DNA from: Sipunculus nudus
Lineage: Eukaryota; Annelida; Sipuncula; Golfingiida; Sipunculidae
Length of the DNA: 64,000 nucleotides
Direction of reading: 5' to 3'
NCBI GenBank assembly: GCA_026874595.1
Contig: CM049321.1
Span: forward strand, 5,758,979-5,822,978
Shown: positions 1 to 47,650 of the stretch, piece by piece
Position numbering within the stretch: position 1 is the first letter of the stretch
Layout: the number at the start of each line of letters is the position of its first letter
The notes under the pieces: generated by a model
What the model saw: only the letters and a program-made list of their open reading frames with translations
Told to the model about the DNA's origin: nothing
Databases searched by the model: none
Program-made: the position numbers and the translations under genes

Positions 1-135
1 ATATTTATGAAGGACACGAAATGCAAATCTGATAAAATCAATAAATAGTGATTTCTCAGCTCATAACTGACAAAAAAAACAGGCTTTTGGTATCTATACC
101 TAGGTTCTTATTCCGACAAACTTGATGGTTCTATT
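1..135. repeat. Left part of a host repeat split by the P-type transposon
   Basis: From about position 8, this matches the reverse complement of 18514-18390 closely, with scattered substitutions. The same repeat resumes at 13453 on the far side of the 13.3-kb transposon, so 1-135 plus 13453-13835 form one interrupted copy. No coding potential is seen. The repeat may extend left of the window. Confidence 0.85.
128..135. repeat. Left 8-bp target site duplication
   Basis: GTTCTATT lies immediately before the transposon's terminal CACAGGCACTCG and is repeated exactly at 13453-13460. An 8-bp duplication is the hallmark of the P-element and hAT superfamilies. Confidence 0.93.
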
Positions 136-477
136 CACAGGCACTCGTTTCCAGCACTAAAATGGCCTAGAAACCGTAAACACATGTCGTATGGGCGATA
201 TACCAGTTATAAAAGAACAAGGTAATGAACTCCACCGCCAAGCGGTGCAAGACAATATTTTTCACAAGTCCGAATTCCGGAGAATTATCCGCTTCACATG
301 CATGATCGCGCGCCTTTTTGTTGAAAACATCTTTATTTTCAAGAATAGTCTTCCAAAAATAAAAGTTCTCCACACTAACCGTGAATTCCAGCACGTTTTT
401 TCCAGCCGCGGCACCGTCATTTGTCATGTATACATTTACTAGTTGCGGAAGTTGACGTGATCCCGGGCTGAATGGAT
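136..477. repeat. Left terminal inverted repeat, 342 bp
   Basis: Reverse complement of 13111-13452, with a single difference near 195 (G here, T in the complement of the right copy). It begins CACAGGCACTCG and ends ...CTGAATGGAT. It is visibly richer in G+C than the surrounding DNA and contains an outward-facing 86-codon open frame (427 to 167, - strand). Transposase-binding sites would be expected in or just inside this repeat. Confidence 0.95.
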
Positions 478-620
478 TTCCCCCTGAGCTGGCCGCTGTG
501 ATTGGCTGAATGAAAAGGTAAAATATTCACCGATTAACTTTGTTAAGTGCCAGTCGTTTCCTACACAACCTTTTGGCGCACTATTCAAACAGCTGTCATT
601 GAAGTAGAAAATCAGTGAGC

Positions 621-658
621 ATGGCATGCAAACACAATCAGGACCATTATATCACTTG
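621..658 (+). CDS. Possible first coding exon of the transposase
   Basis: ATG at 621 opens 12 codons plus 2 nt (begins MACKHNQ). It ends at a weak donor (TG|GTTTGT) whose phase fits the acceptor at 3426: TG+G makes Trp and the frame continues as LHESITTKEEG. Position just inside the TIR and CCAAT box suits a first exon. There is no room for a full THAP zinc finger, which P transposases usually have at the N-terminus. The weak donor makes this tentative. Confidence 0.33.
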
Positions 659-737
659 GTTTGTATCCATAAACGTCTGTTCTATTAAATTAAACTGATT
701 TTTTTTGTAAAATATGATTGTTACACAAAACAATAAT

Positions 738-1385
738 ATTTTTTATGTATGATGTAATAAAAAAATGCAGTTATTGCCATTAGTGTTCATGTTTTCTAAA
801 AAAAATTCAGTTACCCTTAAATGACAATTGTCCAGAATTTTTTCATTCATAAAAAAATACTGTTTTAATGAAAGGCCTATGCCAAATATTATATTCAGTA
901 AAAACAGCTAATATGTATAGTGCCATTCAGGCAGACAATTAATCACATATTAAATTGATTATGCTATGATTTTAAAAGTCAATCATATTAAAACCCCTTA
1001 ATAAAAATCCCACCCTGAATAAAACTTTGCAGGGATTTTCAATGCCATCCATTTTTATATCATGTATGAAAAATGTTATATTTTCAATGATTGTTTATGT
1101 TTTCTTACCCAAAAAACCTGTTATCCTAAAATGATAATTTGTTCAGTATTTTTTATTTATTAAATTTAATTTATTATTCATGTTTTCAAAGGCCTATGCT
1201 GAATATTATATTCAGTAATAACAGCAAATATGTAGAGTGCCATGCAGGCAGGCAAATTAACCATACATTCAATTTATTATGTAATGATTTATTATGCAAT
1301 GGTTCTGAATCCCCCTTAACAAAACACCCATCCAAAAATAAAATTTTGCATGGATATTTCTGCAGTATTTTCAATGCTTCCCAAA
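738..1385. repeat. Tandem duplication of about 320 bp
   Basis: Two diverged direct copies, roughly 738-1050 and 1055-1385. Both share GGCCTATGC..AATATTATATTCAGTAA, then AGTGCCAT.CAGGCAG, and end in TTTTCAATGC. The second copy carries a C12 run just after its end (about 1394-1405). No coding function is seen. Confidence 0.75.
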
Positions 1386-2107
1386 GGTAGTAACCCCCCC
1401 CCCCCACCATACTCTTGGAGAGTTAATAAAGCACCTGCCTTACAGGGATGAATATCAACAGGGAGCCCTGATTGCAGGCCCCTAGAAAATTTATCGAAAC
1501 TCAATTTGTATTCGCTGTAGCTCCAGAACATTGTCAATGAGATTATAACTTTTCTACAAACAAAAAACGCTTTATAAACTGTCTTTCATGCTTGGACCAC
1601 TGATCTGTAGTTATTTCACCCTGATCTCCTGCATGCAGCTAAAATTAACTTTTTAAAAGAAGAAAAACATTAATAAAATGAAATATTTTAATGATTACAT
1701 GTCATTTAGGAATGAATAAAAAAACTCAAATTTCAAAGGTTTGTGAACACTGATGACCAACAAGTCTGTGCCTGCTGAGATATTTATGATATCTGAACCA
1801 TGAAAAGTGAACTTTCTTTAAGCAAAAGTGTTTTTAAACACAATGAATGTGAAGTTAGAGACCTTACAGCTAGTAAACATTCTTTTAAGGATCAACCACA
1901 GGACATCTGAGGGGGCTTTTGTTTTTCCCTGTCTCAAAAAGCAATTAATTCTTTTCAAAGATTAAAAATCACATTAGCTTTCTAACTCATTTTGTGACAA
2001 ATTTCACTTTTTCACTATTGCAAAATAAAACATTTTTGTTCTTCAGCATAGAAGAGAAACCTAGTTATTTCAAATCGACCTGCATGCACTGCTGAATGTT
2101 TTCACCT

Positions 2108-2132
2108 ACACACACACACACACACACACACA
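2108..2132. repeat. (CA)n microsatellite
   Basis: Uninterrupted AC dinucleotides inside the putative transposase intron. Confidence 0.95.
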
Positions 2133-3118
2133 TGTATCCACCTATTTATATAAAATAGTACAAGATATACATGCCTATCCAAACACAAACAAATTACCCA
2201 GTTATAGATATAAGTATAGTTTAACAGCCAAGAGAAATATGTACAAACATGGGATTTTCTTGGCAAAAACAAACAATGCATTATGTGTATGAAGCTTGTC
2301 TACATGAGGTTATGGATGTAGCTACCCTATACATCAACCTTTAATAAAATTTGCTATGTGAGCAAATTTTTAATTAACCACATACACTGAAAGGAGGGGA
2401 TGCTTGTTTTAAACACTTGATAATGTATCAAATTTACTCTTTCCTAATTTTCTGAGACTGGGTTTTCCATTTGTGATGGAATTCGGAGTTAAACTGACCT
2501 GAATTTTATATATAACCATGAATTCATTATGGAGCCAGGCATCATTTTCTTTTTGCTTACATAGCACATATATAATAAAGTATGACATATCCATGATAAC
2601 TGGAGAAGATGGGTTAAATTGCACCTCAGGCATCTATATTTTTTATTAAAATGTTTCAATATACATGTAAGGTATCACATTTTATAGCAGTTAACAATTA
2701 TTTCTAATCATAATTTAATTGAGTGTTAAAATCTGGTGTAAAATATATTAGCCTGGATTATTTATTTATTTTATGGATTCTTCTACAGCTGCACTACTTT
2801 CAGTTGTATGTATTTATCAAATCTCCACAGATAAACAACATAAGTATGTCATGTAAATTAATGTACTTACTTAAGATTGCATATAATACTGAAACAGCCA
2901 AATTAAAAATTTATTATGAAATGAGGAATATGTGAAACATTAAAAAATACCTTTTTGGTATGGTGAAGCTTGAAAATTAAATCACAATTTTTTTCCAGTT
3001 GCGATTGTAATGAAATAAACTACTTTTCATGTAAATAACTTTTTCTCAATGAGAAAAAAAAAAATTCTTTATTTGGAAGAAACATACTACTAAGATAAGA
3101 ATCCCCCCCCCCCGAAAT

Positions 3119-3405
3119 TATCTCACCTTAAAGACCTGCCTTTTATTTTCATATCTTAAGTTATTTCCAAACATTAAATTATCTCTAGATAAAAGAATAA
3201 TTCTTACCAATACTGTAAAATATTTGATATTAAAATTGTGAGTTGCAATAAAATTATCTCACCTAAATAATGCATGAAATTGTAAAGACCTGCCTTTTAT
3301 TTTCATATCTTAAGTTATTTCAAACATTAAATTATCTCTAGATAAAAAAATAATCCTTACCAATACTAAAATATCTGATAATAAAACTGTGAGTCGCCAT
3401 AAAAT
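3119..3405. repeat. Tandem duplication of about 145 bp just upstream of the transposase exon
   Basis: Copies near 3119-3254 and 3255-3405 share AAAGACCTGCCTTTTATTTTC, AAATTATCTCTAGATAAA and TTACCAATACT in the same order. The second ends about 20 bp before the splice acceptor at 3426. Confidence 0.8.
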
Positions 3406-3426
3406 ATGATATCTCTTCTGTTTCAG

Positions 3427-4516
3427 GCTTCATGAGTCAATTACAACCAAGGAGGAAGGCACCATTGTTAAAGACTTGATTTATACAAAATATCTTGCTG
3501 AATGCAAGCTGAGGGATGAAGTTGCCCTCTCAAAAGTTTTGTGTGGGAAAATATTATGTAGCCTTTTCAAGGTTGAAAGTGTTCAGATTCGCAATAATGG
3601 GAAAAATACATGGGCCTACAGAGGAGTTACATGGAAAGCAGAGGAGAGTACTGATATCAGCACCAAGCTATATCATTTTAAACTTGAGGACACTCTGAAC
3701 CAGAAACCAGACAGCTTTATTGTATTCAACCGGCAGAAAGAATTCTGGACATATGGGGAATTTACAGGTTACTTGATAAATGGAGTTAGACAGACAAAGG
3801 AAGTAACATTTAGAACAGATGGAACCTGGCAGCTTAGTGTTGGTTGTACAGCTGTTGACCCAAGTATCATAGGAATTGGACATAATGTTATTGACAAAGC
3901 TGCCAAAATACAGATGGTGTTTGATCTTGTAAGTCAATCTAAATTATGCAGGGGGCAGCTTCTTGGAAATAACAGTACCTGTAAAATTGCTGAACTGTGG
4001 AAGAGTGAAGGGTGTGAGACAACAGGTGAGAAAAGAGTGAGGACATTATCATGTACACAAGTTCTGCCATTCTCATCTTCAAGCAACACATGTCGGGCAT
4101 GTCAGACTGGCCTATGGAGAGAAAGACAGCAAGCTGGGTCAAATATATGCAAAGGAGATACCCTGACACAAGCCAAAAACACACAACAGAGAGAAAAGCA
4201 AGAGAAAAATCATATAGAGCCTAAAGATACTGATGAAATTGCAGACTGTTTAGCCAAATTACTGCCTGGAGCCAGTCCAGAGCTAAAAACTTTATTACTG
4301 TCCCAACGTAAATGTCTCTTACAAGCTGACAAAGATGCTCGAGGAAGAAGATGGGACAAGTCCATTATACAGGCATGTCTGACCTTGTGGAACAGAAGTC
4401 CTCAAGCATATGAACAGCTGAAAAATTCAGGTTTTCTTTTTCTTCCAAGCTCAAATTTGTTGCAAAGACACAAGAACCTAAAAAACAAAAACCAGGGCTT
4501 AACACAGAAGTACTAG
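3427..4516 (+). CDS. P-superfamily transposase, N-terminal part (0 frame)
   Basis: Open from the acceptor at 3426 (TTTCAG|G CTT CAT GAG) to a TAG at 4514-4516, about 362 codons. There is no recognisable THAP zinc finger. The region is mixed basic and hydrophobic, with cysteine pairs (CRGQ, CETT, CRACQTG near 4090-4120) and a lysine/glutamine-rich stretch. Its last 100 nt encode a stretch of the type seen before the catalytic core in P/THAP9 proteins (SGFLFLPS...LQRHKN, near 4430-4477). The catalytic domain continues in the -1 frame, which is open from 4414. The two frames overlap by about 100 nt and meet at a slippery heptamer at 4480-4486. This is either a programmed -1 frameshift or a single-base indel that makes the gene a pseudogene. 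A DNA-binding role for this half is inferred from family architecture only. Confidence 0.8.
4480..4486 (+). promoter_or_regulatory. Candidate -1 ribosomal frameshift site A_AAA_AAC
   Basis: In the N-terminal frame the codons are CTA AAA AAC, so the run is phased as the canonical X_XXY_YYZ slippery heptamer known from astroviruses. Slipping back one base gives CAA AAA CCA GGG CTT AAC, which leads directly into the catalytic frame. The 0-frame stop follows 28 nt later. I could not identify a convincing downstream pseudoknot by eye. A homopolymer indel is the alternative. Confidence 0.5.
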
Positions 4517-5817
4517 AATGGATGAGTGTGGAAGCTGATAAACAAAATGCTTCACGCTGTGGTGGAGTTATATTTGATGAAATGTCTATTCAACAGGACT
4601 TAACTATAGAGGTTGAAAAAGAAGGCGTAAAATTGTGTGGTCTGGTGGATACTGGCCCAGAATGTGATGCCATCAGTGTGTTAATGGATCAGACACACGA
4701 AGCTAAAGCAGCCACTCACATTTTACAGTTTATTTACCTTGACTACAGTGGTTTTCGTTTTCCTTTCCTATTTTATCCAACAGCTGGTGTGAATGCGAAT
4801 CATGTATTTATGCTATTTTGGAGATCTTTGCAAATGCTGACAAGTTGGGACTTTGTAGTTGATTATACTTGTATGGATGGGGCCAACTGTAATAGAACTT
4901 TTATGCATTTAATGCTGTCTGGTAGAGATATCTTTAGTGTTAAAAATATTTTTAATCCTGCCCATGAAATAACACTATTGATGGACTACTCCCATGTTAT
5001 CAAGCGTGTGAGAAACAACATATTCTCAAGTGGACCTGCTGAAAAGCACACAAGACTGATGGAATTAGCAGGCAAAGAAATTGTGTGGAAACATTGGGAG
5101 CAGGCCTTTTTCTGGGACCGCTCAGTAAATCCAGTCAGGATACATCCAAATCTGCTTGAAGAACACATTTTTTTAAGCACACAAACTAAAATGAGAAACC
5201 ATCTGGCAGAGCAGGTTTTGGACAGTGACATGTTAAATCTGATGTGTGAGTATAAGAAAAGTAAAGGTAATGAGGGCATTTACCTTGACTCTTCTATTAA
5301 ACTTCTCCAGAACACCAGTAAGCTTGTGGAGTTCTTTCGTGATGCCGGACCAATAAGCAGTGTTTCAGATGATCGCCTCAAAGTAAACCAAGATGTGCTG
5401 AACTGGTTTTTAGCTTGGGAGTCAGAGATCAAATCCTCAGGTGGAACAGCTGCAGAAAAAAACAGAAAACTCATGTCCCATGAGACCAGAGATGATGTTG
5501 TGTGTCTCTTGAGAGGCTTCCAGGAGCTTGTAGTTCGCAGGCTTAATAAAGGCAAAGGGTCAATAATACCAGCTGGTATAAACAGCGATGTAGTGGAGAA
5601 TATGTTTGCCCAGCAGAGAGCCACTCACCATGGGGCGAACACAAATCCTACTGTATATCAATACAAAAAAGCAGTTAATGCTTCTATCCTTGGTGCAAAG
5701 ATTGTATCAAAAAAATCAAATGCTAGTAGCACCAACACTGCAGCTCAGCCTGTTAACTTTGTGTCAAAGAGGCCACTGAATCCAAGGAAACCTTTAACAT
5801 CACTTACAAACATGTAA
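4486..5817 (+). CDS. P-superfamily transposase, catalytic part (-1 frame)
   Basis: Encodes the RNase H-like catalytic core with P-element/THAP9-family signatures. FDEMSIQ gives the first catalytic Asp (codon 4576-4578). DGANCNR carries the second Asp (4876-4878). MDYSHVIKRVRNN (from 4981) matches the family's K/MDxxHxxKxxRN block in the region of the GTP-binding insertion. VVENMFAQQR carries the catalytic Glu (5596-5598). The frame is open from 4414 with no internal stop; the first ATG is 4522. Joined to the N-terminal half the protein would be about 800 residues, close to the 751 of Drosophila P transposase. The terminal codons ATG TAA overlap a strong donor (AT|GTAAGT at 5813/5814), so the true C-terminus may be spliced to 6910. 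Confidence 0.88.
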   Translation, partial: QKPGLNTEVLEWMSVEADKQNASRCGGVIFDEMSIQQDLTIEVEKEGVKLCGLVDTGPECDAISVLMDQTHEAKAATHILQFIYLDYSGFRFPFLFYPTAGVNANHVFMLFWRSLQMLTSWDFVVDYTCMDGANCNRTFMHLMLSGRDIFSVKNIFNPAHEITLLMDYSHVIKRVRNNIFSSGPAEKHTRLMELAGKEIVWKHWEQAFFWDRSVNPVRIHPNLLEEHIFLSTQTKMRNHLAEQVLDSDMLNLMCEYKKSKGNEGIYLDSSIKLLQNTSKLVEFFRDAGPISSVSDDRLKVNQDVLNWFLAWESEIKSSGGTAAEKNRKLMSHETRDDVVCLLRGFQELVVRRLNKGKGSIIPAGINSDVVENMFAQQRATHHGANTNPTVYQYKKAVNASILGAKIVSKKSNASSTNTAAQPVNFVSKRPLNPRKPLTSLTNM

Positions 5818-5914
5818 GTATTTTTACATCTTACAAAACCAATACCAACAAGTAAAAATTCATGGAATTAATGTCCCCAGCTTTGGGATTTTGTTGATTT
5901 TCATGCTTGTTAAA

Positions 5915-6470
5915 GATGGACAGACAGTGTGACAGACAGACAGACAGAAGCCAGACACCCCAAAACAAATCCTAACCAAGGTATCGATGAGAGCAATGTC
6001 TGACCAAAATTTGAATGAAATCTGATAATATTTAGGAAAGTTATCGCACAGAAATGAAAATATGACGGACTGACAAACAGAGTGACAGACAGACAGAAAG
6101 ACAGACAGATGCCAGACACTCCAAAACCAATCCTAACCAAGGTAAGCATAAGAGCAATCACTGACCAAAATTTGAATGCAATAGGATAATATTTAGGAAA
6201 GTTATCACAAGGAAATGAAAACCTGACAGACAGACAAAGTGACAGACATACAGACAGACAGACACTCCAAAACCAATCCCAACCAAGGTATGCATGATAG
6301 CAATCACTGACCCAAATTTGGATGAAATCAGATGATATTTAGGAAAGTTATTGCACAGAAACAAAACCCGACGGACGGACAGAGAGACGGACAGACCAAC
6401 AGATGGCCAGACAGACAAACCCAAATCAGTGTCCCCAGCATAGCAGGGGACAACAAAAAGAGTGACTGGA
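5915..6470. repeat. Minisatellite with about 150-bp units and GACA-rich segments
   Basis: About four tandem units. Each has a (GACA)n-like stretch, then CCAGACAC.CCAAAAC.AATCC.AACCAAGGTA, then TGACC.AAATTTG.ATG and ATATTTAGGAAAGTTAT. Open frames rich in CLSV repeats on the - strand are by-products of the GACA motif. It lies between the two convergent transposon genes. Confidence 0.9.
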
Positions 6471-6909
6471 CGGATGGACAGACAGTAAAACTCAATCGAG
6501 TATATGCCCTACCTTTAAGCAGGGAGAAAAAAATAATAATAATGATAATAATATCTAAAATAAACAGAAATGCTTAAGGAAAGCAAGTAAATGATGATTT
6601 CATAAATGTGAGTGTACATGAATGATGAAAATTGACTCTTTTTATCTCAAAGTTTCCATATGATGCATAAACTAAATAATCGCATAAAATTTAAAAAAAA
6701 ATTTTCATATATATCATATACCCTCTGGCCCTTTTCTTGAACATGTCCTATAATTAAATATTGCTATATTTTAAGGCTGCCAAAATATTTATTCAAATAT
6801 ATGGGCAGAATACTGTAAAGAATGTTCATTTAAATTGTCACTCAAGATGCCAAGTCATTGAAATGTAAATTTTCTACTTTATTGATCATGTTTTTTACTT
6901 TTTCGACAG

Positions 6910-6977
6910 TCAATTCCCCCTCAAGAATTAGGAACATGCCCATGACCTGGAAAGCCAAGCACAACCAAGCTCTTCAG
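6910..6977 (+). other. Possible 3'-terminal exon of the transposase transcript
   Basis: Bounded by a good acceptor (TTTTTTACTTTTTCGACAG, ending 6909) and a donor-like CAG|GTATGT at 6978. Splicing from AT|GTAAGT at 5813 would extend the transposase by a few residues to a TAG at about 6929-6931. It could equally be untranslated. Confidence 0.4.
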
Positions 6978-7148
6978 GTATGTTAACTAACTTTACAACT
7001 ATGGGCCCTATCAGAAGTCTGAAAAAAATACATATGACAAATTTTTTGCAGCTATCTTTTCATTAGAAACAGATTTAATGTTGAATATGTCTCTTTAAGG
7101 ATAAATATATTATATTTACTTGAGAAAATGTAAAATAAAATCTCTTAC

Positions 7149-7232
7149 CTCATAACAGTGTCCTTTGGGTAATCTTGTCATGTAGGCATACTGGTGTTTC
7201 AGCACTTTCCACTCCTCTCTCACTGCAGTGTA
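7149..7232 (-). other. Exon-like segment downstream of the helicase gene
   Basis: On the - strand, CACTGCAG is followed by an open stretch coding for EEWKVLKHQYAYMTRLPKG and then GAG|GTAAGAG, a strong donor. It could be an alternative 3' exon of the helicase or a relic of a third gene in the transposon. No partner exon is established. Confidence 0.25.
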
Positions 7233-7424
7233 TCAGCACCAGATATTCCTCAAGTGGCTCACAAATTATTTTCCTGTGTTTATCTTCCTTGGGTGGCTTC
7301 CCAAATTATGCTTGATTTTCCTTAGTTTTGATAGTATGAAGGTCTAATAACCATAATTGTTCTCACTATTCACTTAGTTTTTGTCTACTCTTAACAGACG
7401 TAAGTTCATCCTAAAATAGATTTT

Positions 7425-10290
7425 CTATGTCTTTCTGGATGCCTTATATTGCGTACAGACAGAGCATCTCCAGATTTCATCCTCCTTCTGTACCTTCTCC
7501 CATTCTGTGTCATTAATCTCTGCACATTTGCGATGCCACCACTCATCACACTGGTCACACTGCACCCACAATTCTTCGTCATCACTGGCTTCTGGTTCGA
7601 AACACTTATGACAAAGTACTTTCTTTTTTATAGCCCTCCCTTTCCCTTTACCTTTACCCTTCCTTTTCCTGCTTGGTTTTGTGGCCTTTGAGCTTGAAGC
7701 AACTGGGTTGTTACCTGCTGATGGGCATTCAGGTAAAGGGTTGATCATACCAGGTGCATCTTTGTCTTGTATGGCCTGAACAAGTTTGTCATTTAACTTC
7801 TGCTTGGTGTCACTTTTGGTATAGTATATACCATAGGCCTCACAAATACAATGCAGATTTTTCCTGGTGAAATCTGACGTTGTAAATAAAGATGGATTTT
7901 CTGCTGTGGCTAATTTTAGTCTCAAATGGGAAGTGGATCTATGGGTGGACTTGTCTTCTGTAATATCTCTATAGGCAATTTTTCTCATTACAGTGGTTTT
8001 TTCTGATACTTTGCTCGACTTCTGGGTTATGGCTTTTCGGTGGGCATCTTTCTTCAGAAGTTTCATCTCATCTACCATGTCCTTTCTAAACTGTTTGACA
8101 TTGACTTTCATATACCTTGCAATGATGGGATGCATCAGGTCATTCACCAAGAAGTCTGGCTGTGTTGGAAATAGAGTCTTCAAGGCAGTCTTGGCATTAG
8201 GTGAACAGCTTATCATAGTCTCTGCATATTTCACTAGATCTCCTTTGTGAATATTCAGTTTTTCTTTGCTCAGTGATGTGTGAATGCAGTGTGTCAGTAT
8301 CAAAAAGAAAGTTGTGCAATCATCTGAGATGTGAAGCAGACTGTGGCGCACATTTTGTTTTCGCTCTGTTTGTTGTAGGCTTTCAATATCATTTGTGGTT
8401 TTACTGAGATCACTATACTTAATGATAAGACTGTCCAGCATCTCTACCTTTGCTCGGGCCTTAGCAACCTGGGATTTTTCCTTAGGCTTAAACAGATTAT
8501 TCACAATAAAATTTATGAGATGGTGTCTTTCCTTGGCTATACACATAGCCCCAACATAACGCACCTTGCCTCTGCCACCAGGAGACATCTCTTTCTCTGA
8601 AGATCTGGATGTGCCACCAGCTTGATCTGTTTTGACATTCTGTCTCTCATGTTGTAAAAGTTCATTCTGGATTTCTAAAAGTAGGCTTGCAGCAACATGA
8701 ATTTCAGTCTCAGAAGGTCTATTGGTCATGAAGAGTGTCTTGATGCTGCTCGTGTATTCTTCTGAGAATGGGTGCTGGTAGAATTCTCCAAAATATTGTG
8801 ACCACTGCCTGGCTGTACTCTTTTCTGTAGTTTTAAGTTTATCTTTCAGGATAGAAAGTAGTTTAGAATATTGAGATTGACACCAAATCTTTAATTTCTC
8901 AGGATCTTTTTGGATACTTGCTAAAACTGAATCAATTTCCACTTCCTTGGGTGATGATTTGCTTGTGTCAGCAACTTTTTTGCATAATAAAGATACATCA
9001 AGATTGATAGGTTCATTTTCCTCTATTCTGCCTTCTGGAGGTGAGCTGCTGTCAACTAAAGCAGATCCTTCACTTATTTCTCCCATTAGGTAGTCAAGCT
9101 CCATTTCTTCAATCTGGTTCAGCTCATTCATATCAAAGTCTGAGTCATCTGAGAGCATGCCATCTTGGTCATCTTCTTGTTCTGTGTTACTCTGGTCACT
9201 TTGACTGTCACATTCAACAAAGGATTTACAGCAATCCAAATTGTCTTGAAACCTCATTGAGGTCTGGCTGTAATATTCCTGAATTTCATGTGAAGGAACT
9301 GGGCATAAATCTGGGTTGAAGTTAAGCACCTGCAATCTGTGTGGATCCTTGGCCCGACCAAGAGCTAATGACACTTGCCCAGCTTCGAAGGCCCCTTTAC
9401 AGTCCACAACTACTGCATCCAATGTAAGTCCTTGTGACTTATGAATTGTGATGCCAAATGACAGCATCAATGGAAATTGTACTCTTGTTGCAACTGCTTT
9501 GCAGTCAACAGAAGAAAACACTTCAAAAGTATCCTTAGAAAAAATGTGCAAAATATCAATCATAGGAAAATACACAGTTATCTGTTCATTCTCCATTACC
9601 CTGACCTCACCTTGCAGTCCGTTTACCAATGAAGCCGAGTAATTTTTTATCAACATTACAGGGCACCCTGTCTTTAGAGCAAGGACCTTGGGTGCAGCAG
9701 CTCTGCGTAGTGCTTTGGCACTCCCCGTGTCATGAGACTGGTAGATTCGCTGCTCACCAGGAAATGTGTCTAACATGTCAGCATTGAAAACCTGAGCTTG
9801 AAACTTGGTTGCAAACAGGTGAACTGCCTTTACATTATCAAGAGGCCTACAGAGTGACATAAGGAACATTTCAGTGTCCTCAGACACATGGCCAGATGCT
9901 GTTTCATTTACTGCTGTAATAAGCATGTTATCAGCCTGTCGGTGAATTTCATAGAACTGCATATGGTGTGTAAATATCTTTCTCCAGATTTGACTTTTAA
10001 AGCAAAATTCACCAGTATCTTGCTGCATGACATTTGCAACTGGGGGTAGCTGCATAAAATCCCCTGTAGCCACTATCTGAATTCCACCAAAGTATGTTTT
10101 GCTGTTCCTAGAAGTCCTACAAACCAGTTCTAATTGTTGAAATATTTTTTTTGACAGCATGGACACCTCATCAATGAAGATGATGTCTGTCTGAGCAACA
10201 TTCTTTCTCACCCCAGCATACCGATCATCATGCAATACCAGCTGGACTAGTTCATCATTTGTGTAGCGACCATCTAACAAGCCTGCCCAT
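7425..10290 (-). CDS. Pif1-type helicase with SAP-like segment and PHD finger, exon 3 of 3
   Basis: Main exon of a 1022-residue SF1B helicase spliced 12773-12707, 12079-11944, 10290-7425; all phases agree and the total is divisible by three. In full-protein numbering: Walker A GQAGTGKS (23-30, exons 1-2), Walker B IDE (108-109), GDFMQLPPV (144-152), PVML...VNGLQG (278-295) and ITIHKSQG (348-355). Then come an acidic linker, a GRGKVRYVGAMCIAK block, a SAP-like segment near 880-915, a KRKGKGKGKG basic stretch (likely NLS) and a C4HC3 PHD finger (Cys961, 964, 979, 982, His987, Cys990, 1010, 1013). Pif1 helicases unwind DNA 5' to 3'; PHD fingers usually read histone H3 tails. No Rep/HUH domain is present, so this is not a Helitron. 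A role in excision, strand transfer or replication of the transposon is inference. Confidence 0.93.
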
Positions 10291-11943
10291 CTGCAAAAGG
10301 CAAAAACTCTTTTACCTTTGCAAATATAGTCATAGTATTTAATATGCTGATCTGTTTATTTACATATATATGAGATTTTACTGGCTGTTCACTGAAATGC
10401 TCTTGTGCATTGCCACAATGGTTGATTGTAATTCATCACATGGACAAACTGGATTTTATGTGATGTACAGAGAAAGACTGGGGATTACTGTCACAGTTTT
10501 GTGAGCTAAAATGGAGGTCATAAAGTGGTTAAATCATTGTGTTTATGATGTACTGTGTCAGCTAATGCTGAAGTTTTATGTTTTGACATACCGGTAATAC
10601 AATATTTACTCAGCTGATGGTAAAAAAATGACATATCTAGTCTGGAAATTTAAGCTGCTGACTAAAATATAATGACAATTCTGGGTAAAGAGGACCTATT
10701 GCATTGCATACTGCTAGATTTTAGTGCAGAGTTACTTTTTCATCAGGCTAGAAGAATGTAACCAAACACATCTAATAAAATTTTAAGTATTACTTACCAT
10801 AGGTGTAAAAAATGCAATTAAATTATTATCCATAGGTAAACAAACATTATTTAGTTCATGTGATGCTTATGATAATAATACAATTGTTATTTTAAAAATA
10901 AATTCATGAAACCAGTCTTATCTGCCTTGAGCAAACTTTTAGTGATGCTATGTGTTCTATCATCTTGTAATTTTGTTATGATTTTGCAAGCTCAGGTGAT
11001 GCTCAGAGAATGACTGTCATACCATGAAGAGTAGCTGTTGGTAAAATGAGGTACTACCTGCACTAGGTAAACTGATGGTGATGTGAAATGTAAAACTATG
11101 CTGTTTACTCTCTGGTTATACATAATAATATTTATGGTTAAAATGCTTGTCAGAAATGGAAACCTTGCAAAGGTAACTGTTGGTAATAATAAGTATTACT
11201 TGCATTTGACAATATGTATCTGTCACTATCTGATGCATTACGTGCATAGCTGTATTGTCATTATTATTTTTTTTCTAGGCAAAGCCTAGCTCAGAAAATG
11301 TCTGTCACATTTGGATATGCCATTGATGTAAATTACAGTGCTGCTTATATTCAAGTGTTGCTTGTCTTGCCAAACATGAATGCAATGAATTATGTAGAAA
11401 ATAAGCAATTTAATTGTTTTGATGTAAATAACAAAATTTCAAGTACAGATGATGTGAGAGAATGAGTATCATAGCTTAAACAATGAAAATATGAAATGTT
11501 GCTCTGCCTTGTGTAATCTTCATGCAATGTATTACCCTGAATTGTGCCACGGTAGAGTTTATGGTCTATGAATATAAACAATTACAGCTAATATGATGCT
11601 TATAAAGTCATGCATAAATTTGTGGCTAATATGAAAACATGAATGAGATAAATTGTACTTTGTAATCCAATGTGTTACAGTTTAGACTTGAAACAAAATG
11701 TTTTTTCTAAATATGTTTATTGTTAATGAAATGACTCGGTAAGGTATTTCAATCTGACATGTGGGTTCAACAGCTGGTTAGTAATGACTGTGATATATAT
11801 ATAAAATAAACTCCATTGCAGATTTTTGTTATGACTAAAACTTTCATAGCATGAGTGGGTCACTTTAATTGGGCCAAAATGTTCATGTTGTTGCAATGCA
11901 CATGTATGTGTACTATTCTGTGAAAATACAAATAGATTATTAC
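10291..11943 (-). other. Helicase intron 2
   Basis: Bounded by donor CAG|GTAATA (exon 2 end, 11944) and acceptor TTTTGCCTTTTGCAG (exon 3 start, 10290) on the - strand. It is AT-rich with diffuse, weakly repetitive TGATG/ATGAC motifs; no gene is seen. Confidence 0.8.
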
Positions 11944-12079
11944 CTGTGAACAGTTGTTGCTCCTATATTCAAATTCAGTGCTGACATCCCTGTTGTTGAC
12001 AGTATAGTGTGTTTCCTTTCCTTTGGCAAGCCTTCCACACATGCCTTAATCCAGTGACTTTTGCCTGTGCCAGCTTGGC
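11944..12079 (-). CDS. Pif1 helicase exon 2 (Walker A)
   Basis: Acceptor CTCCCTTGTTAG and donor CACAG|GTAATA. The 136 nt complete GQAGTGKSHW, then an LSTTGMSAL block (motif Ia region) and GATTVHR. It is in phase with both flanking exons. The P-loop is intact, so ATP binding should be preserved. Confidence 0.92.
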
Positions 12080-12706
12080 CTAACAAGGGAGACAGAATAA
12101 ATATCTTAATTCAAATTTTCTTGTTATTATAGCAGAGTTACATTGTAAGCTATGGGGACATGAGGAAGAATTGACCTGCTGCATGCTGCTGGACAACTGA
12201 CCAGATCTTTAGGAATGACAACTTGAATCTTTTAATTCAATGACAGTTTTTTTAAGGGCAAAGTCTGGCAAATTATTTTCTTTAATTTTGTAAGTGTGAG
12301 GGCATTATATTTTACACAAACAGATATCATTAAACAAAATCTGGATGTGTTTATAACTGCTACTGGTAAAACTGACTTTACATATGTCTTACCCTGGCTG
12401 TGTGTGATTGGTTGTGTTGGCTGGCTTTACATGACACATTTCAAACTCTGCAATGATACTGTTACTTTGTAATCATGTGGTGTGCTGTAATTTTGTTTGT
12501 TTAATTTACACCAAAAAAAGCTGTTGTTCACAGCAAAAGCCTATTTCAGAAATATATAATCAAATCATTTCCTTTGTTATATGCATTAAAATATCTAATA
12601 TCCTGTATTGTAAAAACAGTGGGTGATATTTGGGGTTTTGATAAATTAAAAATAGAATTTATAGAATAGTACTGAAAGTGTATCTTTGTAGATTTACATT
12701 CCCTAC
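12080..12706 (-). other. Helicase intron 1
   Basis: AT-rich spacer between the donor ACAG|GTAGGG (12706) and the acceptor TTGTTAG (12080). Nothing else is recognised. Confidence 0.8.
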
Positions 12707-12773
12707 CTGTCACCAGGACATTGTGACCCCTCATAACAACACTTTTGGCCTTCGCTTGTTCTTTTGACAACAT
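12707..12773 (-). CDS. Pif1 helicase exon 1 with start codon
   Basis: ATG at 12773 begins MLSKEQAKAKSVVMRGHNVL and leads into the first Gly of the Walker A loop, split across the intron (ACA G|GC CAA). An N-terminus only 22 residues before the P-loop is short but sufficient for a Pif1 helicase core. A further upstream exon cannot be excluded. Confidence 0.88.
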
Positions 12774-13110
12774 GTTGAATCAGGTGAAATGAATACTTTT
12801 TAGTCATAAAAAAATAACCAAAATCCACAACTCCTTGAGATCAGCTGATCAAGAGGTATTTAACTCTTAAAGCCATACAAAAGCCGTTCTCTTATTGGTC
12901 AGAAGTAAAGGAGGCACGTCTGGTACACGTGCTTTTGTTTACAAGTTTACATTTATCAATTTTTTATTGATCCGGTAGAAATTTAAGAAAAAGAAAAATG
13001 TCTTATGTATTTGTGTGATATATTTATAATTTGAGTGAACTGCGTTTAATTATCAATCGTCATCACACTGTAAGATAATTAACGTACTTACCACCAGTGA
13101 ATGCTGTGCT
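12774..13110 (-). promoter_or_regulatory. Putative helicase promoter and 5' region
   Basis: Upstream of the helicase ATG up to the right TIR. Contains an inverted CCAAT (CTTATTGG near 12892-12899) and a CACGTG E-box (about 12926-12931). The left subterminal region also has a CCAAT-type element at a comparable place, suggesting similar promoter layout at both ends. No clear TATA box. The start site is inferred only. Confidence 0.35.
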
Positions 13111-13452
13111 ATCCATTCAGCCCGGGATCACGTCAACTTCCGCAACTAGTAAATGTATACATGACAAATGACGGTGCCGCGGCTGGAAAAAACGTGCTGG
13201 AATTCACGGTTAGTGTGGAGAACTTTTATTTTTGGAAGACTATTCTTGAAAATAAAGATGTTTTCAACAAAAAGGCGCGCGATCATGCATGTGAAGCGGA
13301 TAATTCTCCGGAATTCGGACTTGTGAAAAATATTGTCTTGCACCGCTTGGCGGTGGAGTTCATTACCTTGTTCTTTTATAACTGGTATATCGCCAATACG
13401 ACATGTGTTTACGGTTTCTAGGCCATTTTAGTGCTGGAAACGAGTGCCTGTG
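13111..13452. repeat. Right terminal inverted repeat, 342 bp
   Basis: Mirror of 136-477 with one mismatch; ends ...CGAGTGCCTGTG. Holds the same outward-reading open frame as the left copy (here + strand, ATG near 13161 to 13421), with His replaced by Asn at one codon. Confidence 0.95.
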
Positions 13453-13460
13453 GTTCTATT
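13453..13460. repeat. Right 8-bp target site duplication
   Basis: GTTCTATT, identical to 128-135, directly after the terminal CCTGTG. Confidence 0.93.
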
Positions 13461-18004: not shown

Positions 18005-18514
18005 CCAATTTATTTAATGATTCATTCAAATAATTTCTTATTTACATTTATTGATCCAAACATTTAGGTAAAGACAACAAAAATCATGCTTTTTTCGCTT
18101 CTTGGAGCCACAAAATACCTAATATTGCAAAATGTGTCGAAGTAAAAAAAAACATCTTTTTCAGTTGATGTCCAATATATAATAAATATAAAAAATTTGC
18201 ATCAAAAATATTTTTCAATGAACATCACTAATCATGTGGGGTATTATGCTTTTTGAGGCCTTTATAGTATTATTTTCAAGCTACATGAGAAACAGTGGTA
18301 CATAGATGAAAATGGTAATTAAAACGGGAGTTTGATGGCAGCCATCTTGAATTTCAAAATGGCCACCGGAAATACCAATTTATTAATAGTACCACCAAGT
18401 CTGTTGGAATAAGAAATCTAGGCATAGATACCAAAAGCCTGTTTTTGTCATTTTTTTTTAGCTGAGAAATCACTATATATTGATTTAATCAGATTTGCAT
18501 TTAGTGTCCTTCAT
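18005..18514. repeat. Uninterrupted inverted copy of the host repeat (empty site)
   Basis: Reverse complement of 1-135 joined directly to 13453-13835. The insertion point corresponds to 18385-18392 (complement GTACTATT, 7 of 8 bases equal to the duplication), present once. This provides the pre-insertion state of the locus. Confidence 0.85.
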
Positions 18515-38248: not shown

Positions 38249-39452
38249 GAGTTTCAAGTTGTTTCATAAAAGCCTTGCAAGAAGTGAGTAAAAGTGATAT
38301 ATTAACTGTGAGAGTACACAGGTTTTAATTAAAGTTATTTTTCCAATTGGGTTTAATTTCATATAGACATATATATTCCATAAAGACAAAATATATTATT
38401 TGTTTTATCACTAACTAATTTAGCCATATATTTTGAAAGGAAGCTATTTAAAACATCTGTGCTATTATTAGCAGAAGTAAAAAGCTGAACGTAAATATTT
38501 TAAATATGTTTATATTTATTTATATTTTTCTATTAAAGTTGCGTTTCTCCAGATTGATAAAATATTAAGTTTGCTTTTCTTTCCCTCATACAATCTTATT
38601 TTAATTCTAAAAATGGCTAGTTTTCTTCCTATATTCCTATTATTAGATTATATTTTGCAGATTCCAAATGATTAAAATTTAATGTTTGATTTATTCATAT
38701 TTTGCAATTTATTAATTTCTTTTTCCAATGCAGATATTTTGCATTTCATTTTTGTTTTTTCATATATGACAAGTTACTCTTTGTTGAACCTTCGATTGAC
38801 ATTTTTATAGAATTCCTGAGACGTGCGTAGTTTCTTTTTAGCGAAATCGGGATAATCAAACACAGGCGAGACATTGAAAATTAAAATTCATAAACTTTAC
38901 CCACGCGAATATGAAGTCTACCGCATTATGTTAACTGAGTCACAATATTTTAACCTTGCGAATGTGAAGACAACCACATTATAAGTCATAATTAGAATTT
39001 TACGGGCCTATAACTGTCTCCCAAAACTCTTGAATATCATATATTGGCTGTGTTAGAAATCGTGGATATTGTATCCAATGAAACATCTTGAATTCACACC
39101 AATGGTTGGTTACGGAGGTGAATAAACAAGTTGAAAATGACAAATACAGGACCGTTGGGCTTACTTTTAGAGTGTGCCTAAGTCACAGCTATAGAATATC
39201 AGCCTTATTTGAGATCTTGCCGAACAGAAAATTACAGAAGAAAGAAATAAAACTGAAATCGATGGTTTTATACCACGGGGACCTCAGGAGTTCCACCGAC
39301 AATGCAGTTTTATTATTACCACAATAAACTATTACCCCATGTAAGCCTTCCCGTCCCACGTGGGGGCGGGGAGGCATGGGGGGCTCCGTAAAAGAATAAC
39401 TGACCTGGTTCTTACATACGCTAATTATATCTGAAATAAAGTTCCGACATAC

Positions 39453-39685
39453 CAACTGGACTTCCGTGTGGTTGAGATAGTACGTCTCGCCGCCATAATG
39501 AATGATCGTGCTCTGTGCAAAGCTGACTTTAGGGTTATCTTTATGGAATTCAGGATCGACCCAGATTTGAAAGACTCCGTTTATATCAGATGCAAAATTG
39601 TACACACAGTCGCTTCTGAAATGTACACTCGGTGGATTGTCGAATTGTTTGTAGTTCCCGTTACCGCTCAACTTGCAACATATAT
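39453..39685 (-). CDS. vWD-domain secreted protein, exon 3 (first half of vWD-1)
   Basis: Acceptor ATTTTTTACAG, donor TTG|GTATGT. Encodes DICCKLSGNGNYKQFDN, then FRSDCVYNFASD, FQIWVDPEF and IIHYGGETYYLNHTEVQL. The order of aromatic/Cys blocks matches a vWD first half, but the usual CGxPHxxTFDG opening is replaced by CCKLSGNGNYKQFDN, so calcium binding may be altered. Starts in phase 1 (matches exon 2) and ends in phase 0. Confidence 0.9.
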
Positions 39686-40140
39686 CTGTAAAAAATAATG
39701 AGCTATACAGGCAGTACCAGTTCCGTCATCATAAGACAACATGTATAAACAACAGATATTCACAATAAACCCTTTTGTTAAACTTTCAAGATATTCCCGC
39801 AGAAATTGTTATCAAACTCAGTCATTGGACTGGATCACTCCTTTATTCGGATCCACGGCAACATTTAATTGATTTCAAATGTTCATTTCTATCTGAGCCA
39901 AAAGTTGATAACTGGGGCCTTTTGTTGCTGGATTATCATCACTTAAATATTATTATTATTTTTATTATTTATAAATGCTTACATTTGTGATAGTTCACTT
40001 ATGCATTTCTTAATATTTGTCATCAATATCTACTCTTCTGCGCATTATATACAAGCACCTATATTAGGTTTGAAATTGGGGCAAAAATGTAAGATGTACA
40101 GATTGAAACACAATTGTTGTGTTAAAAAAAACTAACTTAC
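39686..40140 (-). other. vWD gene intron between exons 2 and 3
   Basis: Short AT-rich intron; nothing else recognised. Confidence 0.8.
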
Positions 40141-47515: not shown

Positions 47516-47650
47516 GTACAAATACACAGAGGGGTTGGAGATCTGTCATGGCCGAGAAGACTAAGGCAGCCGCACCGCAAATCGGAAGATAGTGGGTTCG
47601 AATCCCACTGGCAGTGAAACACTTTTCTGTGTATACCCTTTCTATCTAAA
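47516..47650 (+). mobile_element. tRNA-derived SINE copy, + strand
   Basis: A-box region TGGCCGAGAAGACTAAGGC (about 47549-47567) and B box GGTTCGAATCC (47595-47605). The non-tRNA tail ACTTTTCTGTGTATACCCTTTCTATCTA is shared in part with the other copies. Confidence 0.78.

Follow-up and report, generated by a model that had tools for sequence, protein, structure and literature searches.

Introduction

The P element is the textbook one-gene eukaryotic transposon, and the question raised by the locus considered here is whether a transposon of this kind can own a helicase as a second gene. The locus lies in a 64,000-bp stretch of the Sipunculus nudus genome (hereafter the window; C16:5758979-5822978 of an assembly of 1.43 Gb in 153 contigs), in which a preliminary description had placed an element (positions 136-13452) with a P-type transposase and a Pif1-type helicase between terminal inverted repeats (TIRs). 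The observation of a P-type element carrying a helicase is confirmed and the interpretation that the helicase belongs to the transposon unit is supported; a two-gene mobile unit with a P-type core is regarded as close to certain. Coordinates of the features are collected in Table 1.

Table 1. Features of the element and its insertion site (window positions; TIR, terminal inverted repeat; TSD, target-site duplication)
Feature	Positions	Strand	Evidence or remark
Left TSD, GTTCTATT	128..135		flank comparison
Left TIR, start CACAGGCACTCG	136..477	+	341/342 identical to right TIR
P-superfamily transposase main exon, acceptor at 3427	3427..5817	+	two frames meet at about 4480-4490; broken in the window copy
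Weak RFX-like (winged-helix) DNA-binding region	3428..3631	+	E 0.045 in the window
Transposase catalytic core	4414..5814	+	D 4576-4578, D 4876-4878, DxxH 4984-4995, E 5596-5598
161-bp tandem array between the two convergent genes	5931..6415
Helicase exon 3: most of Pif1 core, helical C-terminal region, stop codon	7425..10290	-
PHD finger	7455..7613	-	PF00628, 2.2e-5
Helicase exon 2, completes Walker A GQAGTGKS	11944..12079	-	GT-AG junction
Helicase exon 1, predicted start codon	12707..12773	-	GT-AG junction
Right TIR	13111..13452	-	341/342 identical to left TIR
Right TSD, GTTCTATT	13453..13460		flank comparison
Empty site: other copy of the target repeat, uninterrupted	18016..18514	-	alignment with joined flanks

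A two-gene mobile unit

The 342-bp TIRs and the perfect 8-bp TSD are as previously claimed, with one mismatch between the two TIRs. The element interrupts a dispersed repeat, the other window copy of which is an empty site with a single GTACTATT at the junction, across which the joined flanks align (431/503 positions). Since this copy aligns through the junction, the ends of the element are the ends of the insertion.

Other copies of this family (family A) were sought genome-wide with a 30-base end pattern at up to 2 mismatches, which was found 299 + 337 times (636 ends) and never with the backward pattern used as control. Among the first 100 of the 636 ends there are 23 adjacent pairs within 30 kb, 21 of which span 79-1799 bp and are non-autonomous copies, too short for either gene. 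At eight loci around such ends, one (a 660-bp pair) has a TSD matching save for one base, and three pairs (two of them identical) have none by a simple test at the same loci. One pair, 18,936 bp apart (C8:5063691-5082626), bounds a further copy of this element, 99% identical and with its own TSD (AGCAAGGT); the alignment of the two holds 63 substitutions, and the transposase of the C8 copy contains a nested insert. A third copy (C6:10.83 Mb) is decayed and retains portions of each gene, its TIRs not being found in the 11 kb read, and these three are the long family A copies with both genes. Joint occurrence of the genes between the same TIRs, which the preliminary description had proposed as a check, holds for the window and C8 copies. 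That description had also counted helicase-free copies with these TIRs as a sign of chance nesting; such copies do occur, and in those examined (a small part of the 636 ends) the transposase is missing too, as in the short pairs and in a 7,980-bp copy at C9:1721228 (TSD GTGACTAC), which has neither gene. Two side observations concern these copies: the C8 insert (5.6 kb, C8:5068250-5073868) is bordered by GTTAA on both sides and is perhaps a TTAA-targeting element, and three 160-bp TIR-TIR copies (C4:55650242, 55665671 and 55681105) lie about 15.4 kb apart, as if within a tandem duplication.

Besides A, families B, C and D carry a transposase and a helicase between their TIRs. Family B is represented by elements of 14,567 bp (C2) and 14,550 bp (C10), 99.4% alike, with 371-bp TIRs and TSDs CGTGAGAG and TATCCTGT, and family C by one of 16,299 bp (C15:37473641-37489939; TSD TCACGGGC), a length that counts about 1.6 kb inserted within the left TIR; the parts of this TIR on either side of the insert are 100% identical to the right TIR. 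Family D has a 14,103-bp element on C1 (TIRs of about 120 bp, 7-bp TSD ATTCGAC) and another at C8:24491595-24506360, flanked by CTGGGTC. The latter has a family D neighbour (up to C8:24521078, flanks CACACTG, left TIR unrecognisable), so that two elements stand nearly head to tail. The TSD is 8 bp in families A, B and C, the length typical of the P superfamily, and 7 bp in D. A further related pair lies at C3:37.35 and C6:30.96 Mb, with the C3 member starting CACAGGCGCTTGAATCG and its other end not found. The two genes are convergent in A, B and C and divergent in D. Between the four families, helicases share 26-48% identity and transposases 35-51%; A and B form the closest pair for either protein, and the distances of C and D rank differently between the two.

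Association of the genes was also examined across the genome, with helicase loci defined at E<=1e-20 (37 matches, 48/396 candidates scored, 22 loci) and transposase loci at E<=1e-10 (58 matches, 95/108 candidates scored, 38 loci). A transposase lies within 15 kb of 20 of the 22 helicase loci, where 0.018 would be expected by chance; 14 are convergent, 5 divergent and 1 on the same strand, with two C2 helicase loci sharing one transposase locus. Loci that pair a transposase with a weakly preserved helicase may be undercounted. Both genes sit in one mobile unit and have moved together, and their association is seen in several families that have diverged deeply, with the genes in either relative orientation.

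The transposase

The window transposase matches a TNP-like RNase H domain (E 1.2e-10). Its core is of RNase H type and homologous to that of P transposase, and the D, D, E and D(2)H residues lie at D55, D155, D191-H194 and E395 (numbering of the core in Table 1). In a 51-row alignment (48 of 65 relative rows, P0122, P0123 and the window), D55 is invariant and D155, D191 and H194 are kept at 90% or more; the catalytic E is invariant in 8 rows. The first D and the E were aligned with P transposase by profile, which was needed because the window core alone had no match to PDB sequences at E<=10, and the middle D was assigned by eye. The P/THAP9-type assignment of the preliminary description thus stands for the catalytic core and is not borne out for a THAP9-type N-terminus: no THAP domain was found in 4 upstream open reading frames, 10 relatives and 65 listed relative rows, the first exon of the window gene, upstream of the acceptor at 3427, not having been found. 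The RFX-like region reaches a best E of 2.9e-5 among relatives (2/7 members). A candidate GTP-binding insertion domain (PF21788) is reported for 2/7 members and 4/10 relatives, one of those below cut-off; for the window transposase it is without report, and a fold match spans that region. Hermes (hAT) appeared in the Foldseek comparison of the transposase model at 3.5e-4 and was set aside at a TM of 0.23; absence of a family from the fold tables excludes nothing.

The claim of an intact transposase did not hold, as the window frame changes near 4480-4490. Programmed frameshifting at a slippery-looking run near 4480 was considered and rejected, since the C8 copy keeps its frame there and a mutation specific to the window copy is likelier.

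The helicase

The three helicase exons join in frame at predicted GT-AG junctions into 1022 aa with no internal stop, in agreement with the three-exon gene first described, and match PIF1 (3.7e-15), Pif1_2B (1.1e-6) and PHD. Walker A lies at residue 23, DEVSM at 108 and the PHD finger at about 961-1013. PIF1 (PF05970) and 2B (PF21530) are present in 18/18 family members (E<=0.1), which places the proteins in the Pif1 family; PHD was detected in 8 of the 18 scanned, several of which are truncated, and was also seen by eye in the family D helicase. The SAP domain once proposed is not confirmed, none being listed for the window helicase at E<=1 or E<=0.1 (for other members, the result covers the first 25 of 75 families). 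The predicted structure (mean pLDDT 75.7, pTM 0.57) matches the Candida Pif1 fold at 4.9e-24, and the stretch between the Pif1 core and the PHD finger appears helical in the model, with no nameable family.

Origin and selection

The 17 best helicase relatives are those above 300 bits among 120 listed rows (1429 matches), the others reaching at most 207 bits and 42% of the query. They are 30-50% identical, and those from bivalves are annotated as uncharacterized proteins or PIF1. The named sources of these 17, and likewise of the 65 transposase relatives, are bivalves plus bacterial bins of Thiodiazotropha and Sedimenticola, and the bin matches are taken as host carry-over; the genera named for either protein include Ruditapes, Saccostrea, Mytilus, Dreissena, Mercenaria, Mactra and Mya. 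The lineage is a further source of PIF1-like genes that annotations may mistake for host genes. In a 39-row tree, a branch supported at 100/100 separates 21 transposon-type helicases (families A-D, known in elements, and the 17 database proteins, grouped by similarity) from 8 animal PIF1 and 10 others; the branch of the family D helicase is long, and the tree does not resolve the deepest forks of the clade.

Between families A and B, pN is 0.367 and pS 0.821 for the helicase (934 codons) and 0.276 and 0.769 for the transposase (244 codons), with pS saturated, so that the ratio can be read only as well below 1. The comparison indicates that the helicase is under purifying selection between families.

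Proposed mechanism and alternative explanations

It is proposed that an ancient acquisition, most simply a single one, gave a P-superfamily cut-and-paste lineage its Pif1-family helicase with the C-terminal PHD finger, retained since then as a second transposition gene. The transposase would bind the TIRs, excise the element and insert it with a staggered 8-bp cut (7-bp in one lineage). The helicase would act on the gap left in the donor, much as cellular Pif1 works on D-loops together with DNA polymerase delta. It would drive long repair synthesis templated by the sister or homologue, and the 13-16 kb element would be recopied in full instead of lost or shortened; the PHD finger may hold the helicase, or complexes of the element, at modified chromatin. 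Accounts of the cellular processes, as far as the cited passages go, are compatible with such a role: Pif1 promotes the extension of D-loops by Pol delta, and long gene conversions depend on it in a yeast mutant background (PMC8096244), and P-element donor breaks are processed via homologous recombination or non-homologous end joining (PMC7776569). Larger Harbinger-type elements show less excision and insertion, with some evidence of replication by homology-dependent repair (PMC10288884). An element of 13-16 kb should gain from a helper of long repair synthesis. The explanation as a whole, a two-gene P-type transposon with a donor-gap helicase, is mildly favoured; the donor-gap role taken by itself is tentative. 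A stronger version, in which the lineage is partly replicative and the Pif1-PHD helicase makes donor-gap repair resemble break-induced replication, permitting sizes several-fold that of Drosophila P, is doubtful.

Several observations weigh against this account. Both family A copies compared have a damaged transposase (in C8, a 16-bp deletion and a stop), and the C8 helicase has a 1-bp insertion, which bears on present activity of the family. Shortened copies are common (the 21/23 pairs under 2 kb), and any help of the helicase to full copying must therefore be far from complete. The divergent gene order in D could reflect capture on a second occasion, although a single origin is compatible with the tree. 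For the diverged helicase at C15:60.76 Mb no transposase is listed at E<1e-6, and the 17.5 kb read there contain no TIR; for that at C14:47.03 Mb the nearest transposase match is 30 kb away. Furthermore, 19 of the 38 transposase loci have no helicase match at the thresholds used, a count limited by the helicase search having scored part of its candidates; 17 of these 19 span less than 700 bp, and a transposase locus at C9:12.016 Mb has no helicase listed (E<1e-6) and no TIR in the 16 kb read. The pairing is thus strong when the helicase loci are taken as the starting point and less complete when the transposase loci are.

Other roles for the helicase are given less weight. It might act within cut-and-paste itself, opening or remodelling the ends or stripping the transpososome from the product for gap filling, which would suit its place beside the transposase in several families and a step, target-side disassembly and repair, described as uninvestigated in a passage of a P-element review (PMC7776569). 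The passages of the same review on in vitro transposition with transposase and GTP name no element-encoded helicase, however, and no sequence feature marks the ends as a helicase substrate, so that this role seems unlikely. Slightly less probable still is a protein serving mainly as a chromatin or anti-silencing factor, with the PHD finger reading histone marks and the helicase clearing replication or silencing barriers; the PHD finger of the window protein, of the 8/18 members and of family D speaks for it, yet the helicase motifs are complete and conserved, and a pure tether would need none.

The donor-gap account also has to be set against readings in which the helicase does nothing for the element. 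A captured passenger, hitchhiking without benefit, would explain why the window and C8 helicases differ at 10 nonsynonymous and 6 synonymous codons, as in unselected copies, and capture of host genes by DNA transposons does occur; but helicases that are 26-48% identical accompany the transposase in different families, are under purifying selection between these and form one clade, and a passenger is accordingly very improbable. Chance nesting, in which an unrelated transposon with a helicase would have landed in a P-type one, has practically nothing left in its favour: nested events happen in this genome, as the C8 insert illustrates, but the same two-gene unit was inserted twice (window and C8), and families B, C and D together with the 20/22 pairing refute it.

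Comparison with known systems

As far as the consulted passages on Drosophila P, THAP9 and Galileo describe them (PMC7776569, PMC4168063), these share with the window element an RNase H-type core with D, D, E and DxxH, and the P superfamily shares its 8-bp TSDs, TIRs and internally deleted copies; long TIRs are shared with Galileo. Unlike Drosophila P (2.9 kb), the present elements measure 13-16 kb and have a second gene for a Pif1-PHD helicase, and unlike P, THAP9 and Galileo they have no THAP domain found, a weak RFX-like region, CACAGG ends and one lineage with 7-bp TSDs.

Helicase-bearing DNA transposons are already on record, namely KolobokH with RecQ (PMC9587614) and AcademH (PMC10045372). 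AcademH, known here via citing papers, likewise carries its own helicase, but its TSD is given there as 9 or 10 bp (8 or 7 bp here) and its transposase belongs to a different superfamily. KolobokH and Kolobok-1_CCri combine a transposase with a helicase, in the latter on the complementary strand, according to the passages cited for them (PMC9587614); they differ in having a RecQ helicase and a Kolobok transposase, where the present helicase is of Pif1 type. With host PIF1, the window helicase shares the Pif1 core, and it differs in its separate clade and in a C-terminal extension of about 590 residues that includes the PHD finger. Helitrons are not known to have TIRs or a TSD. They share a Pif1-type helicase with the window element, and Helraiser is among both sequence and fold matches (7lcc), whereas here the helicase is a separate protein with a PHD finger within a TIR/TSD cut-and-paste element. 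The literature surveyed, consisting of titles, beginnings of abstracts and passages, with Repbase outside the survey, holds no P-type element with a helicase, of Pif1-PHD or any other type. A lineage that has kept its helicase through deep divergence and in two gene orders is a natural test case for how cut-and-paste elements gain copies, whether by host gap repair alone or by repair machinery of the element's own.

Other observations in the window

Both TIRs contain a long open frame (170-526 on the minus strand, 119 codons; 13101-13418 on the plus strand, 106 codons), neither with a Pfam match better than E 0.064, which is the best value for the 106-aa frame and below cut-off. No contaminant record was confirmed among the pattern matches (141, genome contigs; 38, viral contigs). 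Elsewhere in the window, a 177-aa open reading frame (39189-39722, minus strand) has a weak von Willebrand D match (E 0.07), and a tRNA-like Rfam match of 35 bits (47542-47616) near repeated stretches is possibly a short interspersed element (SINE).
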